Made by a program: the position numbers and the translations under genes
Notes under the pieces: model-generated
The model's database searches: none
What the model was told of the DNA's origin: nothing
What the model saw: the letters and a program-made list of their open reading frames with translations, nothing else
Shown: positions 36,353-45,104 of the stretch, in pieces
Layout of the letters: each line of letters starts with the position of its first letter
How positions within the stretch are numbered: the stretch's first letter is position 1
Source: Sphingobium sp.
GTDB taxonomy: Bacteria; Pseudomonadota; Alphaproteobacteria; Sphingomonadales; Sphingomonadaceae
DNA: 64,000 bases
NCBI GenBank assembly: GCA_009360885.1
Contig: SPEL01000005.1
Span: 1 to 64,000, forward strand
Direction: 5' to 3'

Positions 36353-37630
36353 GTGTCAATCTGCCTGCCTTATTCCGCAGACCATCGCCATATGCTGATT
36401 GGTTATACCAGCGCCCATTTTGGCAAGAGCCTGCTATGGTCCGGCGAAGATGCGCTGACCCTCTATATACTGATCCGCACCCTCGACCTGCCCCCCGCAA
36501 TGGCTGGCATGGTGTTTTTATCCAGCGCGTTATGGAACGCCCTGTGCGACGGTCTGTTCGCGATGATATTATTGCGGTGGCCCGGCGTCTGGCGATATTT
36601 GCCAGTAGTCACTGTTCCGGCAATCATCGGTGCGGGTATTGGTTTCGCCATTTTACCGATGGTCGCCAAAGGCAGCCTTTTTGCTAGTATCGCCCTGCTT
36701 TTCCTGTTTCGCACCTGTTTCTGTCTGCTCGATATACCCCATAATGCGCTAACCCACGGCCTGGCCATGCAATTCGGCCATTTACCAATGGCGCGCCTTC
36801 GTTCCCTCAGCGCGGGCATTGCTGCGCTCATCATTGGTTTCGTAGGGTTTCAGATTATTCATACCGGGGAATCAACGCATACTATATTGGAAATGTTGAT
36901 ATTTTCTATCGGCGTCAGCGCCTGCCTGCTGATGCTCCCTATTCCTTTCCTGCTAAAGCACAGCCCCCCAGAATCCCCCGCCTCCCATTCTTCTGCTTCG
37001 GATGCCAACGCCCCTCTCAACAAAGGTTTATGGATATATTGCCTCGCCAGCCTGATTGGCCTGTCGGGGCTGGCGGCGTTCGCCAAAGCAATATTACATA
37101 TGGACTTTCGCGCAGAAACTATTGGTGCCGCCGCCCTGTTGTTAATGACTGTTGGCAGGATCGCCGCCATCTGGTTCTGGACACCGCTGGCGCGCAAAAT
37201 TGGCAGCCGTCAGGCGCTCGCCCTATCCTATGTGCTAGGTGGAGGCTCTGTGCTGTGCATGCCGATAATGGCCGGAATGCAGGATCTGCCCTTATTCTTC
37301 TCGTTAATTACCTGCGGCATCCTGGGCGGCGGCATTGCCTATCTTTCATGGGCCGTACTGACGGAAACATTAGGAAATAGCACCAATGTTAGCCGACATG
37401 CGGCGGGATTTGGCCTGTTCACTATGAGCATGAAGATCGGGCTGGGCCTGTCCGCGCTGTTGGTGGGCTGGTGGCTTTCCGCCCGGCAGCCCGTTCAGTT
37501 CATGATGAATGACAGTCTATCCTTGCTGACCATTGCTATACCGGTCATCACCCTGATCGCAGCCTTGCTCATCCTCCTATCGGGCAAATTCAGCGTCAGT
37601 GCAGTGCCTTCACCTCACCCCTATTCCTAA
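36353..37630 (+). CDS. MFS transporter (GPH / melibiose-symporter-like)
   Basis: 425 residues, about 12 transmembrane helices, from GTG 36353 with AGAGAGGA upstream. The pattern S-A-L-W-N-A-L-C-D-G-L after helix 2 and the basic cytosolic loop resemble the glycoside-pentoside-hexuronide cation symporter branch (MFS_2). It follows the phospholipase C gene by 79 bases on the same strand and may import the liberated head group. Its stop codon overlaps tail-to-tail with that of the convergent double-TetR gene. Confidence 0.8.
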   Translation: MSICLPYSADHRHMLIGYTSAHFGKSLLWSGEDALTLYILIRTLDLPPAMAGMVFLSSALWNALCDGLFAMILLRWPGVWRYLPVVTVPAIIGAGIGFAILPMVAKGSLFASIALLFLFRTCFCLLDIPHNALTHGLAMQFGHLPMARLRSLSAGIAALIIGFVGFQIIHTGESTHTILEMLIFSIGVSACLLMLPIPFLLKHSPPESPASHSSASDANAPLNKGLWIYCLASLIGLSGLAAFAKAILHMDFRAETIGAAALLLMTVGRIAAIWFWTPLARKIGSRQALALSYVLGGGSVLCMPIMAGMQDLPLFFSLITCGILGGGIAYLSWAVLTETLGNSTNVSRHAAGFGLFTMSMKIGLGLSALLVGWWLSARQPVQFMMNDSLSLLTIAIPVITLIAALLILLSGKFSVSAVPSPHPYS

Positions 37631-38835
37631 GATCCTGCCCTAAAGAAAGCCTGCCGCATTTGGGCGAGCATATCCAGTGCAGTGACCGACACCTCTTTCT
37701 CTGCTTGTTTTTCATGGGCCTGCGCCGCCAGCGTAGCGCCGATTGTAACCATCACCGCCGCCTGTATCGCGGCCTTATCCGGTTGCTCATCAGCCCTGCC
37801 GGATAAACCCTGCCCCACCGCATCCCACACATTTTCAGCCCGGCGACGACGCATATCCAGCGCAAAAGGCAAAAGCTGCGGATTTCTACAAGCCGCCAGC
37901 GCAATGGAGTGGGTTGCGCGAATGGCGGCCATACGGCGCCGCTCCTCACGACTTTCTGATGTTTCGGATGTAATATGCCGCCGCATTTGCAGGATGAGCG
38001 CCCCCATGCCCGCGTGAAGCAAATCCTCATGAGTACGAAAATGATGCGCGACGGAGGAATTGGAAATACCGGCCTCAGCCGCGACCGCCCGATGGGTCAC
38101 TGCGCTGGCACCAAGGCGGCTGATGACCGTGGCCACATGCGCCGCCAGTTCCGCTTTTTTGGACCCAACCGGTAAATCAACCACGAGGGGGTAGAGCGCA
38201 TCGGTGCTTTTTGTACCGCAGGCCGCAACCAGATGATCGAATGAAACAGCAAGGCCCGTCGCGGGGCCAGCCAGCCCCTCACTCAACCGTTGAATAGTCG
38301 CCGCGCGCAGCAACCGATAATCGGCATTCATCCCAAGGGCGAGGGAGAAGGGCAACTCATCATGGCAATAGCTGGCAACGGCATAACCCAAAGCCCCCGC
38401 CTGTTCGCCGTAGAAGGGTGAGAGCAGCTCCTGCCAGAAAATCGCTTCCCCATCCAGCAACACCCCCATGCCGGGAAACGCTGCCGGGTTCAGCCCCGCC
38501 TCAAGGGAAAGCTCGCACAAGGTAATTGCGGCTTCCCGCGATGCGATGGCTTCATCCAGATAAGCAAGAACCAACATGGCCAATACAGGTGCCTGCCCTG
38601 TCATCAGAATGTTGGCGCGCCTTTTCCACCTGCCATGCACTATCTGTCGTTGCGCGGCCTCTTCGCTAATCAATTGAGCAATCAGCGCATTTTTATCGCC
38701 AATATGATAATTTATCGACCCAACCGAAGTTCCCGCCGCCTGCGCGAGCGAGCGCATGGCGAGGCCCCGAATACCACGGGCAGCAATCAGAGGACGAGCA
38801 ACCGGATAAAGAGCGAATGAAGCAGTGACGGACAT
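37627..38835 (-). CDS. Transcriptional regulator with two TetR units in one chain
   Basis: 402 residues, twice the normal TetR length. A first helix-turn-helix (about residues 26-52, M-R-S-L-A-Q-A-A-G-T-S-V-G-S-I-N-Y-H) and its ligand domain are followed near residue 240 by a second one (T-H-R-A-V-A-A-E-A-G-I-S-N-S-S-V-A-H-H-F) with another ligand-type helical region. Ordinary TetR proteins dimerise; this protein could form a pseudo-dimer on its own or bind two sites. It converges on the MFS gene with overlapping stops (37627-37630), suggesting it controls the receptor-phospholipase-MFS set. Very few tandem TetR proteins are described. Confidence 0.85.
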   Translation of the reverse strand: MSVTASFALYPVARPLIAARGIRGLAMRSLAQAAGTSVGSINYHIGDKNALIAQLISEEAAQRQIVHGRWKRRANILMTGQAPVLAMLVLAYLDEAIASREAAITLCELSLEAGLNPAAFPGMGVLLDGEAIFWQELLSPFYGEQAGALGYAVASYCHDELPFSLALGMNADYRLLRAATIQRLSEGLAGPATGLAVSFDHLVAACGTKSTDALYPLVVDLPVGSKKAELAAHVATVISRLGASAVTHRAVAAEAGISNSSVAHHFRTHEDLLHAGMGALILQMRRHITSETSESREERRRMAAIRATHSIALAACRNPQLLPFALDMRRRRAENVWDAVGQGLSGRADEQPDKAAIQAAVMVTIGATLAAQAHEKQAEKEVSVTALDMLAQMRQAFFRAGS

Positions 38836-39703: not shown

Positions 39704-41122
39704 ATGCGTCCTATGTTCAAAACTATATCCGCCGCCGCAACCTTGTTGTCGGCCATCGCTCCCGGCCTGACACCTGCATTTGCGCAGGATACGTCGCCCA
39801 CCGTCCAGCCCACAGCAGCGCCCCCCCAATTGCCTGCGCCAGAGGTGCCCATCCCTCCGCTTTCCGCCGCGCAAAAGGCATTTCTGGCCAAATGGGTGAA
39901 GGGTGGAAGCGCACAGGGCCTTGGGGCCGCACAGCTTGACGATCAGGCTCTTTCTGATTCTGCGCTGATTAAGGCGGCGCTTGACCGCGCCCATGCGCTG
40001 CATAACGGTCGGGTGGCCCCATCTGATTTCCTCGACATATGGGCTTTGCGCCCCTCGGCTTATGACCCGCGCCCCGGCTTTGCCAAGGCCGTCGCCGATG
40101 ACAAAGTGCAGGCATGGGCCGAAAACCAGTCCCCTCCATATGCCGGTTATGAAGGGCTGCGTCTGGGCCTGCAGAATTATCGCCGCATCGCCAGTGAAGG
40201 CGGCTGGCCAAAGCTGGCCGCGGGTGCCAGCGAAAGCGCCATTCGCAAGCGCCTCGCGGTGGAGGATAAGAGCAGCACCGGGCAAAGCCTGACTGCTGCC
40301 CTGCAACAGGCACAGCGCCGCTATGGCCTGCGCCCCACCGGCACGCTCGACACCGCAACGATTGAAGCTCTTAATGTTCCGGTTGAAAGTCGCATTAATT
40401 CCATCATGGCGAATATGGAACGCTGGCGCTGGATGCCCCGTGAAATGCCGGTCAACCGTGTGCAGGTTAATATCGCCGCTGCGGTCCTGACTGTGTTCGA
40501 AGGCGACCAGCCCGTTAATTCCATGCGTGCCGTCACCGGGCGACCGGGCAATGAAACACCCATGCTGGTCAGCACCATTCACTCCATCGTCGTCAATCCA
40601 CCATGGAATGTGCCGACATCCATCGCCAAAAAAGAATTGCTGCCACAGGGCCGTCAGACCCTTATCAACCGTGGCTATCGCTTCATCAAGACAGAAGGCG
40701 GCGGCGAACGGCTGCAACAGGCACCGGGGCCGAATAATTCGCTGGGGCGGCTGAAGTTCGACTTTGACAATCCCTTCGCCGTTTATCTGCATGACACCCC
40801 GGCGCGCGGTAAATTCGCCAGCTATGACCGGCTGGCCAGCCATGGCTGTATTCGGCTGGAAAAGCCGGTTGATCTGGCCGATTTGATGCTAGGGAATAAC
40901 CCGGATTTCAACGGATCTGTCCAGACACTGATTGATGCGGACAAAACACAGCGCGTCTCTCTGTCCCAAAAGGTATCGGTCTATCTGCTCTACTGGACAG
41001 CCTTTGCCGGCAATGACGGGGTCATGAATTTCCGCAGCGATCCTTATGGCTGGGACAGGCTGCTCGCGACCAAAATAGAAAAATCGAGCCAGAGCGCCCG
41101 ATCCAATATTACCGCCTCCTAA
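39704..41122 (+). CDS. L,D-transpeptidase (YkuD type) with N-terminal peptidoglycan-binding region
   Basis: 472 residues with a signal peptide (A-F-A-Q near residue 28), a helical region and a PG_binding_1-like segment (Q-Q-A-Q-R-R-Y-G-L-R-P-T-G-T-L-D), then the YkuD domain with H-D-T-P-A-R-G-K-F and the catalytic S-H-G-C-I-R-L (Cys382). It forms meso-DAP cross-links or anchors proteins in the periplasm, or acts as a WcbD/YcbB-type L,D-transpeptidase. Two in-frame ATGs (39704, 39713) lack a clear ribosome site. The lipoprotein gene follows 11 bases after its stop, with a second, different L,D-transpeptidase further on. Confidence 0.9.
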   Translation: MRPMFKTISAAATLLSAIAPGLTPAFAQDTSPTVQPTAAPPQLPAPEVPIPPLSAAQKAFLAKWVKGGSAQGLGAAQLDDQALSDSALIKAALDRAHALHNGRVAPSDFLDIWALRPSAYDPRPGFAKAVADDKVQAWAENQSPPYAGYEGLRLGLQNYRRIASEGGWPKLAAGASESAIRKRLAVEDKSSTGQSLTAALQQAQRRYGLRPTGTLDTATIEALNVPVESRINSIMANMERWRWMPREMPVNRVQVNIAAAVLTVFEGDQPVNSMRAVTGRPGNETPMLVSTIHSIVVNPPWNVPTSIAKKELLPQGRQTLINRGYRFIKTEGGGERLQQAPGPNNSLGRLKFDFDNPFAVYLHDTPARGKFASYDRLASHGCIRLEKPVDLADLMLGNNPDFNGSVQTLIDADKTQRVSLSQKVSVYLLYWTAFAGNDGVMNFRSDPYGWDRLLATKIEKSSQSARSNITAS

Positions 41123-41605: not shown

Positions 41606-41701
41606 CTTATTTCCCTGTTTCATCGCGGTGAAAACACTCTTTGTCTGACAAAACAGAGTACAGGCTTGGGTTAGGAACGCTGCAACCTTATATCGTCCGT
41701 G

Positions 41702-42388
41702 ATGGATAGAAGAGATTTCACGCGACTAGCTATGACGGGACTGGGGGCAGCTCTATTTGGAGGCTCCACCGCCCGCGCGGCAAATTATATATTCGAGGGG
41801 CAGAAAATGCTCCCCGGCACACCGATCCCCGATGATATAGCGCGCGCCGGTACGGATATATTCACCCGTTCGCACACCCCCTCTTATACCATGTTGCTAG
41901 AACGGGCGAAGGCGGCGCTCAACACCCATAAAGGGCGTATCATACGGCGCGACCGTGTTGCACTGGCTGACTTTGGCGCAGCATCCCATGCGCTGCGTTT
42001 TCACATTGTCGATCTGGAAGGAGGGCGTTCGTCTTCCTATCTGGTCGCCCATGGGAGGGGGTCAGACCCCGGCCATTCAGGATGGCTGCGCAATTTTTCC
42101 AACGGCATTGGTTCCCTCGCCACATCAGACGGGGCCTATGTCACGGGCGACATTTATTATGGGCAACATGGCCAGTCCATGCGTCTGGCCGGTCTTGATC
42201 CGTGCAATAATAATGCCGCTGCCCGCGCCATTGTAATTCACGGAGCGGATTATGTGAGTGAGGATTTTCTCGTTCGCTGGGGTAAGCTGGGGCGCAGCGA
42301 AGGGTGCTTTGCGCTGGCCCGGCATATGGTGCCGGTGGTGATTAGCCAGCTTGGCCCCGGATGCCTGCTCTACGCTGATAAGCCATAA
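41702..42388 (+). CDS. Tat-exported murein L,D-transpeptidase catalytic domain protein (YkuD_2 type)
   Basis: 228 residues from ATG 41702 (an in-frame GTG stands just before). The N-terminus carries a twin-arginine signal, R-R-D-F-T-R-L, then a hydrophobic stretch ending A-R-A. The mature protein has V-I-H-G-A-D-Y-V and G-R-S-E-G-C-F-A-L, the His and Cys segments of the YkuD_2 family, unlike the S-H-G-C-I-R-L of classical YkuD. It is probably a periplasmic peptidoglycan enzyme; the Tat route implies folding before export. It ends seven bases from the convergent UdgX-like gene. Confidence 0.83.
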   Translation: MDRRDFTRLAMTGLGAALFGGSTARAANYIFEGQKMLPGTPIPDDIARAGTDIFTRSHTPSYTMLLERAKAALNTHKGRIIRRDRVALADFGAASHALRFHIVDLEGGRSSSYLVAHGRGSDPGHSGWLRNFSNGIGSLATSDGAYVTGDIYYGQHGQSMRLAGLDPCNNNAAARAIVIHGADYVSEDFLVRWGKLGRSEGCFALARHMVPVVISQLGPGCLLYADKP

Positions 42389-42395
42389 GACCGGT

Positions 42396-43844
42396 TTAGG
42401 CGGGAAGGCTAGCCTGATAGAAGGAAATGCACTGAAGCAGATCAGCCAGCAACTCCTGCCGGGCCTGCTTCTGTCGCGCTGCCCCCGCCATCTGTGCAAT
42501 ATCAGCCGGGTGCCATGACAGCAGCACAGGCGTACCGAGTAACCCTTTCTCGGTTCTACCCCGCCGAAGAGAGAGCGGCCCATCATCCCCCGTCAGTGAA
42601 AAAGCCGCCCCCTCGCCAAGCGCCAGAATGATCCGCGGCTGCACAAAGGCCAGTTCCAGCGCCAGCCATTGCCGACAGGCAAGGATTTCATCACGATCAG
42701 GCGCAACCGGCACGCGATTCTTACCCTGCGGCGTGAATTTATAATGCTTAACCGCATGGGTCATCCATATCTGCGCCGGATCAATCGCGGCCTCAGTCAG
42801 CATATCGCGTACCATCTGTCCATCCGGGCCAGTGAAGGGGCGTCCGGACAGATCATCCTTGTCTTCCGGCTGCCCGGCCACAATCATCAGTGCCGCTTTG
42901 CTATTCCCCTCACCCCATATAGCCTGTGTCGCGGCCTCACACAGGCCGCATTGGTGGCAATGCCGCACAGCAAGACGGGCTTCCTCCATAGTGGCGGGCC
43001 TCTCAACCGGCTTTGGCATGGTCGCCCGATATCGGGTGGATATAGCCGCAGCTCCAGGTCGGGCAATACTGGTTCCCGCAGCGCGCATTCTTTCCACCCG
43101 CGCTTCCGCATCTTTGAGCATGTCCGGGATGAGCCGTGTTTCAGGCAGATTTTTCCAGTATTTCTTCGGCATTTCGGATTGCATAGCGTTCAGCTTGACC
43201 CGCGCCGGGTTGAAAATATTGGCGAAATAGGTGGCCCATAATGCTTCTGATGCATCCTCTGGCAAATCCGGTTGTGGCCCACCGGGGCCGAAACGCAGCT
43301 TTCCTGCCTCATAACAGGCTGTCAGCCGGGGCGTCGCGATCATCCAATCCATATCCGCAAAGCGTTTGACGAAGAAGCGGCTGCCCGGTTCCAGCGTGTG
43401 ATGCTCTGGCTCAAACCATGCAGCGAAGCTACGCCGGTCGCCATGGCCGGGCACCTCCCGAAAGCGAACAAAAGCATGCATTTTATGAATGTCCCGCCCC
43501 ACAGCCTTGGCCATCAGATTGAGCCTGCGGCCCAGCGCATCAGCGGGGGAAATTGGGTTGCCTTCTCGCCTGCTCAACCGCCACAGAGCCTGATAAAGCA
43601 AAGCAAATCGCTCTGGCGCATTGTGCCAGATGACAGACCCCGCGAGCCTCAGAAACGCCTGCGGTACAGTGAACACCGCCGCAGGCGCAGAACCGGCATC
43701 CGGCAATGGACATGCCGGAAACAGTCCTTCCTTCCCTGCCCAGTCAATCTGGTCCGGCGCAATATCATGGCTGATGGCGTTGCGCGCTGCCTGTCGCCAT
43801 GCCTCAAACACGCCGCGATCCGGCAGGGAGACAGCGTATATCAT
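42396..43844 (-). CDS. DUF4130-UdgX-like uracil-DNA binding protein with altered active site
   Basis: 482 residues. The N-terminal DUF4130 domain (about 1-255; R-D-I-H-K-M-H-A-F-V-R-F-R-E, A-W-F-E-P-E-H-H) is joined to a family-4/UdgX uracil-DNA glycosylase domain with Fe-S-type cysteines (Cys296, Cys299, Cys302, Cys390) and H-P at 445-446. In characterised UdgX a Glu in G-E-Q-P-G and a His ending K-R-R-I-H make the covalent link to the abasic sugar. Here the equivalents read A-G-Q-P-E (323-327) and K-N-R-V-P (375-379), so both residues are missing. The ATG overlaps the radical SAM stop by four bases. It is placed after an SOS box. Confidence 0.87.
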   Translation of the reverse strand: MIYAVSLPDRGVFEAWRQAARNAISHDIAPDQIDWAGKEGLFPACPLPDAGSAPAAVFTVPQAFLRLAGSVIWHNAPERFALLYQALWRLSRREGNPISPADALGRRLNLMAKAVGRDIHKMHAFVRFREVPGHGDRRSFAAWFEPEHHTLEPGSRFFVKRFADMDWMIATPRLTACYEAGKLRFGPGGPQPDLPEDASEALWATYFANIFNPARVKLNAMQSEMPKKYWKNLPETRLIPDMLKDAEARVERMRAAGTSIARPGAAAISTRYRATMPKPVERPATMEEARLAVRHCHQCGLCEAATQAIWGEGNSKAALMIVAGQPEDKDDLSGRPFTGPDGQMVRDMLTEAAIDPAQIWMTHAVKHYKFTPQGKNRVPVAPDRDEILACRQWLALELAFVQPRIILALGEGAAFSLTGDDGPLSLRRGRTEKGLLGTPVLLSWHPADIAQMAGAARQKQARQELLADLLQCISFYQASLPA

Positions 43845-45089: not shown

Positions 45090-45104
45090 GTTCACGAAAT
45101 GTTC
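45090..45104. promoter_or_regulatory. Alphaproteobacterial LexA (SOS) box, GTTC-N7-GTTC
   Basis: GTTC at 45090-45093 and GTTC at 45101-45104 with exactly seven bases between, the direct-repeat consensus of alphaproteobacterial LexA. It lies 16 bases upstream of the radical SAM start at 45073, where a repressor would block the radical SAM-UdgX operon. Also divergent to the beta-helix gene at 45233. Confidence 0.7.

Follow-up and report, generated by a model that had tools for sequence, protein, structure and literature searches.

A described system close to the locus reported here is UdgX of Mycobacterium smegmatis (PDB 6AIL, 6AJO and others), and the residue numbers of this enzyme (E52, N91, H109 and so on) are used below for aligned positions. 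In one study, the E52A-H109A double mutant and N91A showed no detectable activity and both were folded, H178A was inactive yet folded, and D59A, F65A, K94A and R107A were unfolded; E52A alone partly retained cross-linking, H109A retained slow excision, and cross-linking required that excision occurs first (PMC10776899). According to a second study, single H109 mutants turn into ordinary glycosylases, kcat/Km of H109S/E52N is decreased about 75-fold, R184A weakens the use of substrate, and the physiological role of UdgX is largely unknown (PMC10359453). The same study separates UdgX from the family-4 enzymes (1ui0, 1l9g; UdgA), which lack the R-loop signature and carry GE(A/G)PG as motif A together with P107 and N109 (PMC10359453). 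UdgX-type domains also occur fused to DUF4130, for which PMC3765255 offers a prediction only. Among the papers listed it was the sole one with the word DUF4130, and our literature search returned no experiment on this domain or on its TIGR03916-type radical-SAM partner. Searches on UdgX, DUF4130 and UdgX with SOS, LexA or radical SAM, which mostly left subscription papers outside, gave no listed title on a UdgX inactivated in nature, and no paper turned up on an inactive UDG as pseudoenzyme.

The window, i.e., the whole stretch of 64,000 nucleotides from a Sphingobium genome (8 contigs, 79.6% complete), encodes a DUF4130-UdgX-like fusion (Table 1). The protein scored 203 bits with the TIGR03914 'UdgX family' profile (cut-off 189.95, residues 238-470) and 188.5 bits with the DUF4130 profile TIGR03915 (cut-off 112.25), and Pfam placed a UDG domain above its cut-off at residues 311-469. 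Sequence and structure alignments with solved UdgX chains were concordant, at 33-36% identity over about 200 residues, and by both its TIGR03914 score and its fold the protein groups with the UdgX class. Its structural model, for which the input alignment consisted mainly of canonical relatives, is UdgX-like and indicates a sequence compatible with the UdgX fold; whether the protein actually folds is beyond the reach of the model. H367 is presumably the fourth ligand of the Fe-S cluster. The profiles and alignments thus bear out the architecture, the Fe-S cysteines and the H-P motif that a preliminary description had assigned to this gene, and the three motifs it had read, A323-G-Q-P-E327, K375-N-R-V-P379 and H445-P446, lie exactly at these residues. 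Elsewhere in the window, a single protein with two TetR_N domains is encoded at 37627-38835 (minus strand), and two neighbouring L,D-transpeptidase genes of different families (YkuD, 39704-41122, and YkuD_2, 41699-42388, both plus strand) precede the fusion gene, the second ending 7 bp short of it.

Table 1. Positions of the fusion gene, its domains and active-site residues, and the adjoining operon features within the window.
Feature	Residues	Position	Strand	Remark
DUF4130-UdgX-like fusion gene (P0001)	482 aa	42396..43844	minus	482 codons; no internal stops
DUF4130 domain	78-235	43140..43613	minus	above Pfam cut-off; clade invariants all kept
UdgX-type UDG domain	283-470	42435..42998	minus	active site lost, fold residues kept
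Fe-S ligand positions	C296, C299, C390, H367	42957-42959 (C296), 42948-42950 (C299), 42675..42677 (C390)	minus	all kept; invariant columns
Motif A, AGQPE replacing GEQPG; E52 to G324	323-327	42864..42878	minus	alignment
A69 to D341, DNA contact position	341	42822..42824	minus	alignment
N91 to H363, uracil-contact position	363	42756..42758	minus	alignment
R-loop, KNRVP replacing KRRIH; H109 to P379, R107 kept as R377	375-379	42708..42722	minus	
Motif B, H-P, H178 equivalent kept	445-446	42507..42512	minus	alignment
R184 to Q451, DNA backbone contact	451	42492..42494	minus	alignment
Radical-SAM partner, TIGR03916	414 aa	43841..45085	minus	583 bits, cut-off 343.5; CxxxCxxC at residues 72-79
LexA-type direct repeat, GAAC-N7-GAAC		45090..45104	minus	4 bp upstream of radical-SAM start

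Compared with M. smegmatis UdgX, the DUF4130-fused domain of the window has lost seven active-site or substrate-contact residues (G51 to A323, E52 to G324, G55 to E327, A69 to D341, N91 to H363, H109 to P379 and R184 to Q451) and keeps Q53, P54, D56, D59, F65, P68, K94, R107, H178 and P179. In motif A the Gln is kept and the Glu is lost, the TNAV segment around N91 reads THAV, the UdgX signature of R107 and H109 (as named in PMC10359453) keeps the Arg but has a proline for the His, and motif B, HPS(S/A)(L/V)(L/V)R in UdgX, reads HPADIAQ, with H-P kept and R184 lost. With AGQPE, R377 and P379 the domain also departs from family 4. None of the four fold-critical residues D59, F65, K94 and R107 is lost, and the salt-bridge residues D56-D59-R107 together with K94 are present as D328, D331, R377 and K366; three of the four catalysis-only residues (N91, H178, and E52 with H109) are gone. 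The losses of N91, A69 and R184, like the location on the minus strand, were absent from the preliminary description.

To place these changes, relatives were gathered from the best 80 of 446 named loci, 61 related genomes, 385 class genomes, searches of the genus and the family, and further from Acetobacteraceae searches, a class sample and plasmids. After removal of duplicates 146 distinct fused genes remained, the window's included, a non-random set because most were chosen for resemblance to the window. With 'canonical' defined as carrying E52, N91, H109 and H178, 138 were canonical, two were cut by contig ends (L027, L068) and six were degenerate, namely the window and five genes from Acetobacteraceae: L048 (Gluconacetobacter), L064 and L082 (Acetobacter), and L140 and L157 (from the genus of L064), the last two belonging to other subfamilies by sequence. 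G51, E52, G55, F65, A69, N91, K94, H109, H178 and R184 were invariant in 138/138 canonical genes. The canonical fusions nearest to the window (Cypionkella, Paracoccus, Pleomorphomonas and others; within L031-L063 except L048) share the two-domain protein at 59-69% identity and, where the stretch reaches, the radical-SAM partner and the LexA-type box, but keep the motif A Glu, the Asn and the R-loop His, which the window does not. The degenerate Acetobacteraceae fusions resemble the window in having kept the DUF4130 invariants and lost catalytic UDG residues. They differ from it in that L064, L082 and L140 lack H-P and four of the five (L064, L082, L140, L157) lack F65, with K94 also lost in L140 and D59 in L157. 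The set of six is not uniform: R107 is retained in 6/6, D59 and K94 in 5/6 each, E52 in 3/6, and F65 and H178 in 2/6 each. As in the window, H109 is replaced by proline in L064, L082 and L157, and N91 by His in L140.

Two further observations concern single groups of relatives. Three class sample fusions (L180, L182, L184) keep GEQPG, the Asn, KxRIH and HP and have no Fe-S cysteines; here the loss runs the other way, leaving what looks like a UdgX with a complete active site but no cluster. In three Brucella genes (L067, L068, L070; B. tritici and B. pituitosa) the DUF4130-UdgX match starts at residue 95, one of them being split in addition, and the radical-SAM gene was not found in the fetched stretch; L040 (B. 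pseudintermedia) has both genes.

The damage was confined to the UDG domain. Taking the 37 nearest canonical proteins as reference, with rows L001, L027, L029, L030, L067, L068, L070, L118 and L129 dropped as partial or duplicate, the window was changed at 0/12 clade-invariant positions in residues 1-77, 0/63 in DUF4130, 0/10 in the linker and 14/55 in the UDG domain, against leave-one-out maxima for canonical proteins of 14%, 3%, 9% and 7%, respectively; the contrast of 0/85 outside and 14/55 inside has a p of 7e-7. Mean identity to the clade was 0.79 for DUF4130, the same as within the clade, and 0.535 for the UDG domain, compared with 0.685 within the clade. A wider count over positions conserved to at least 95% in the 138 canonical genes (57 before the UDG domain, 43 inside) gave the same contrast in all five degenerate Acetobacteraceae fusions: changes before and inside the domain were 0 and 11 in the window, 0 and 6 in L048, 1 and 10 in L064, 1 and 14 in L082, 1 and 15 in L140, and 1 and 11 in L157. 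Canonical genes had means of 0.58 and 0.35 and maxima of 11 (in L067, a truncated gene) and 3. Within the window's UDG domain, 7/10 invariants at the active site or in contact with substrate were changed and 7/45 of the others (Fisher p 0.0013), the active-site set being our own choice of 13 positions from two papers, 10 of them invariant, with some DNA contacts named there left unmapped. Counting the coupling residues D56, D59, F65, K94 and R107 as active-site gave 7/15 versus 7/40 (p 0.034). All seven other changes were conservative (BLOSUM62 of at least 0), and in a simulated unconstrained decay, which assumes uniform mutation of one relative's codons, the pattern of the window arose in 0/3000 runs. 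On these alignments, the active-site changes of the window exceed chance.

Since E52, N91 and H109 are lost, and R184 as well, and since the corresponding UdgX mutants are inactive, neither trapping nor useful excision is expected of this domain. Judged from sequence, the UDG domain of the window can very probably neither excise uracil nor cross-link to it, while it sits on an intact SOS-type radical-SAM-DUF4130 core, and new here, very probably, is a naturally inactivated UdgX domain on the known DUF4130-UdgX architecture. The preliminary description had already expected no covalent trapping from the missing Glu and His, and the additional losses of N91 and R184 support this expectation. That the domain still cross-links through another nucleophile appears extremely unlikely, as a proline is no substitute for the nucleophile and the domain also lacks the Glu that activates and the Asn that contacts uracil. 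For such a residual reaction speak an H109E mutant that, by the title of its entry, was crystallised cross-linked to DNA (PDB 6l6s), and the partial cross-linking of E52A, but in the same study excision has to precede cross-linking (PMC10776899).

The preliminary description had also offered a plain glycosylase as an option, which the published mutants do not sustain. For a uracil-DNA glycosylase that turns over, as the laboratory UdgX mutants H109S and H109G do, speak the ordinary activity gained by single H109 mutants in PMC10359453 and the H178 and F65 that the window keeps. We nevertheless consider it very improbable: E52, N91 and H109 are jointly lost, with R184 in addition, E52A-H109A and N91A are inactive in PMC10776899, and H109S/E52N is already strongly impaired. 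The genome, moreover, encodes an Ung by sequence (GQDPYHG), one of four other UDG-superfamily matches, among which by eye one is MUG-like and one family-4-like and no second UdgX with an R-loop, which might supply the lost chemistry, was seen in this 79.6% complete assembly.

The preliminary description had named a conserved Glu and His placed elsewhere in the active site as an observation that would count against it. Aligned to UdgX, E327 falls on position 55 and H363 on 91, and its reading therefore does not wholly escape this objection. The pair allows for a re-specialised enzyme whose site has been rebuilt on E327 and H363 and which acts on or binds a base other than uracil. The window (E/H) and L140 (D/H), members of different subfamilies, both combine an acid at 55 with a His at 91, whereas 138/138 canonical genes have Gly and Asn at these positions; the concentration of changes at the active site and the retained H178 fit as well. 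We still regard this as quite improbable, as the pair is confined to two of the six degenerate proteins and Gly at 55 is kept in the remaining four, L140 has lost H178 too, the DNA contacts R184 and A69 are gone from the window, and a side-chain contact between E327 and H363 has to be assumed. There is a slight chance that the acid at 55 and the His at 91 arose together in two subfamilies and that a domain which irreversibly traps uracil thereby became one that reads or processes another base, perhaps one made or used by the SOS-type radical-SAM-DUF4130 pair.

The surroundings of the domain appeared intact. The radical-SAM gene is the first gene of the operon and the fusion gene the second, its start overlapping the radical-SAM end by 4 nt, and both gene order and overlap are shared by plasmid relatives (three annotated regions of four fetched). 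The window's radical-SAM protein was changed at 3/218 invariant positions, with a canonical leave-one-out median of 0.5% and a maximum of 6%. The repeat upstream corresponds to the direct repeat GTTC-N7-GTTC, an alphaproteobacterial LexA operator. One match of this type is expected by chance per window; among relatives with 250 bp upstream, however, a box lay within 20 nt of the start in 77/80, 66 in the orientation of the window and 11 in the opposite one. It was also found in 23/23 checkable loci of the Acetobacter genus, in 15/16 loci of the class sample (window included) and in 10/11 checkable of 59 loci of the window's own genus, where two genomes were counted twice. Control of the operon by a LexA/SOS-type system thus has sequence support, and the conservation of a LexA-type box justifies, at that level, the earlier term SOS-linked for the protein.

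The same operon core also occurs without the UDG domain, as stand-alone DUF4130 beside a radical-SAM gene (TIGR03915 with TIGR03916), with the LexA-type box nearly always present where checkable. In the genus of L064, 24/49 genomes matched the L140 fusion at E 1e-30. In twenty of these, DUF4130 adjoined the radical-SAM gene, and the sequence fetched, some 1.5 kb to either side, contained no UDG-like frame; L169 covers DUF4130 only in part, and the matches of L149, L150 and L152 are interrupted by one or two stops. The other four were fused, all degenerate and none canonical. An even class sample yielded 18 positive genomes among 289, ten fused (the window and nine canonical) and eight without UDG in the same frame. 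Within the window's genus, TIGR03915 matched in 74/94 genomes, nearly all in frames of fusion length, with L030 as one clear DUF4130-only case besides a handful of short or incomplete frames, some running off a contig.

That the UDG domain is usually gone altogether in the Acetobacter genus favours a pure relic, in which the domain has no function and is being cut off while only DUF4130 and the radical-SAM enzyme matter, and argues against the explanation we prefer. The losses of H-P in L064 and L082, of F65 in four Acetobacteraceae fusions, of K94 in L140 and of D59 in L157 point the same way, as does the lowered identity of the window's UDG domain next to an unchanged DUF4130. We consider the relic unlikely, as the window's UDG domain contains no stop and no indel relative to L031, keeps D59, F65, K94, R107 and the cysteines, has only conservative changes at its other invariants and is poorly fitted by unconstrained drift. 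In addition, the degenerate UDG domains of the Acetobacter pair L064/L082 gave a dN/dS of 0.24 (bootstrap 0.15-0.37), well below 1 and indistinguishable from canonical pairs. Selection on the window's own UDG domain was not measurable, as it is known from one genome only, the nearest relative found is 69% identical and dS is saturated.

The usual copy in the window's genus belongs to a different canonical subfamily (38-46% identity), so the window copy is probably, as far as sequence tells, a horizontal arrival. It groups with Rhodobacterales, Hyphomicrobiales, Acetobacteraceae and a few others at 58-69%, some on plasmids, the closest relative among the best 80 of 446 named loci being 69% identical. 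Besides the window, only three matches (45-46%) were obtained in 94 genus genomes at E 1e-108 or better, and no relative in an even draw of 397 family genomes at E 1e-112. Three stretches of viral contigs matched a pattern, none of which encoded a relative. A quick tree on the UDG-bearing columns left the window unplaced; holding it with L064 and L082 gave a lnL higher by 24 (AU p 0.86) and a clade of the window, L064, L082 and L048 with support 69, motif columns having been excluded from both trees, with column 364 mistakenly in place of 363. The same four were joined with support 76 in a quick tree on radical-SAM and DUF4130, and a careful tree on these left the window unplaced. On a single quick tree with 144 DUF4130 rows, where L140 is a long branch of unsure place, parsimony counted four losses, or three if the window, L064, L082 and L048 form one clade. 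The losses in the window and in Acetobacter may have a single origin.

The explanation we prefer, and hold to be rather likely, is a two-gene operon with a LexA-type box that encodes an apparently intact radical-SAM enzyme and, in its second gene, an apparently intact DUF4130 joined to a UdgX domain inactivated in nature. DNA damage would relieve repression by LexA, upon which the radical-SAM enzyme and DUF4130 would be made together and act on DNA, performing the selected work of an SOS-induced DNA modification or repair step. The UDG domain may still fold and bind its cluster, would form no covalent adduct and excise uracil at no useful rate, and would be retained, if for anything, as a passive tether to DNA or to a partner. 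UdgX chemistry has apparently been switched off several times, with hardly any change to the radical-SAM enzyme, to DUF4130 or to the LexA-type box, which suggests that the operon core does not depend on uracil trapping. These genes offer a natural comparison for the role of this core, and for when a suicidal cross-linking domain pays.
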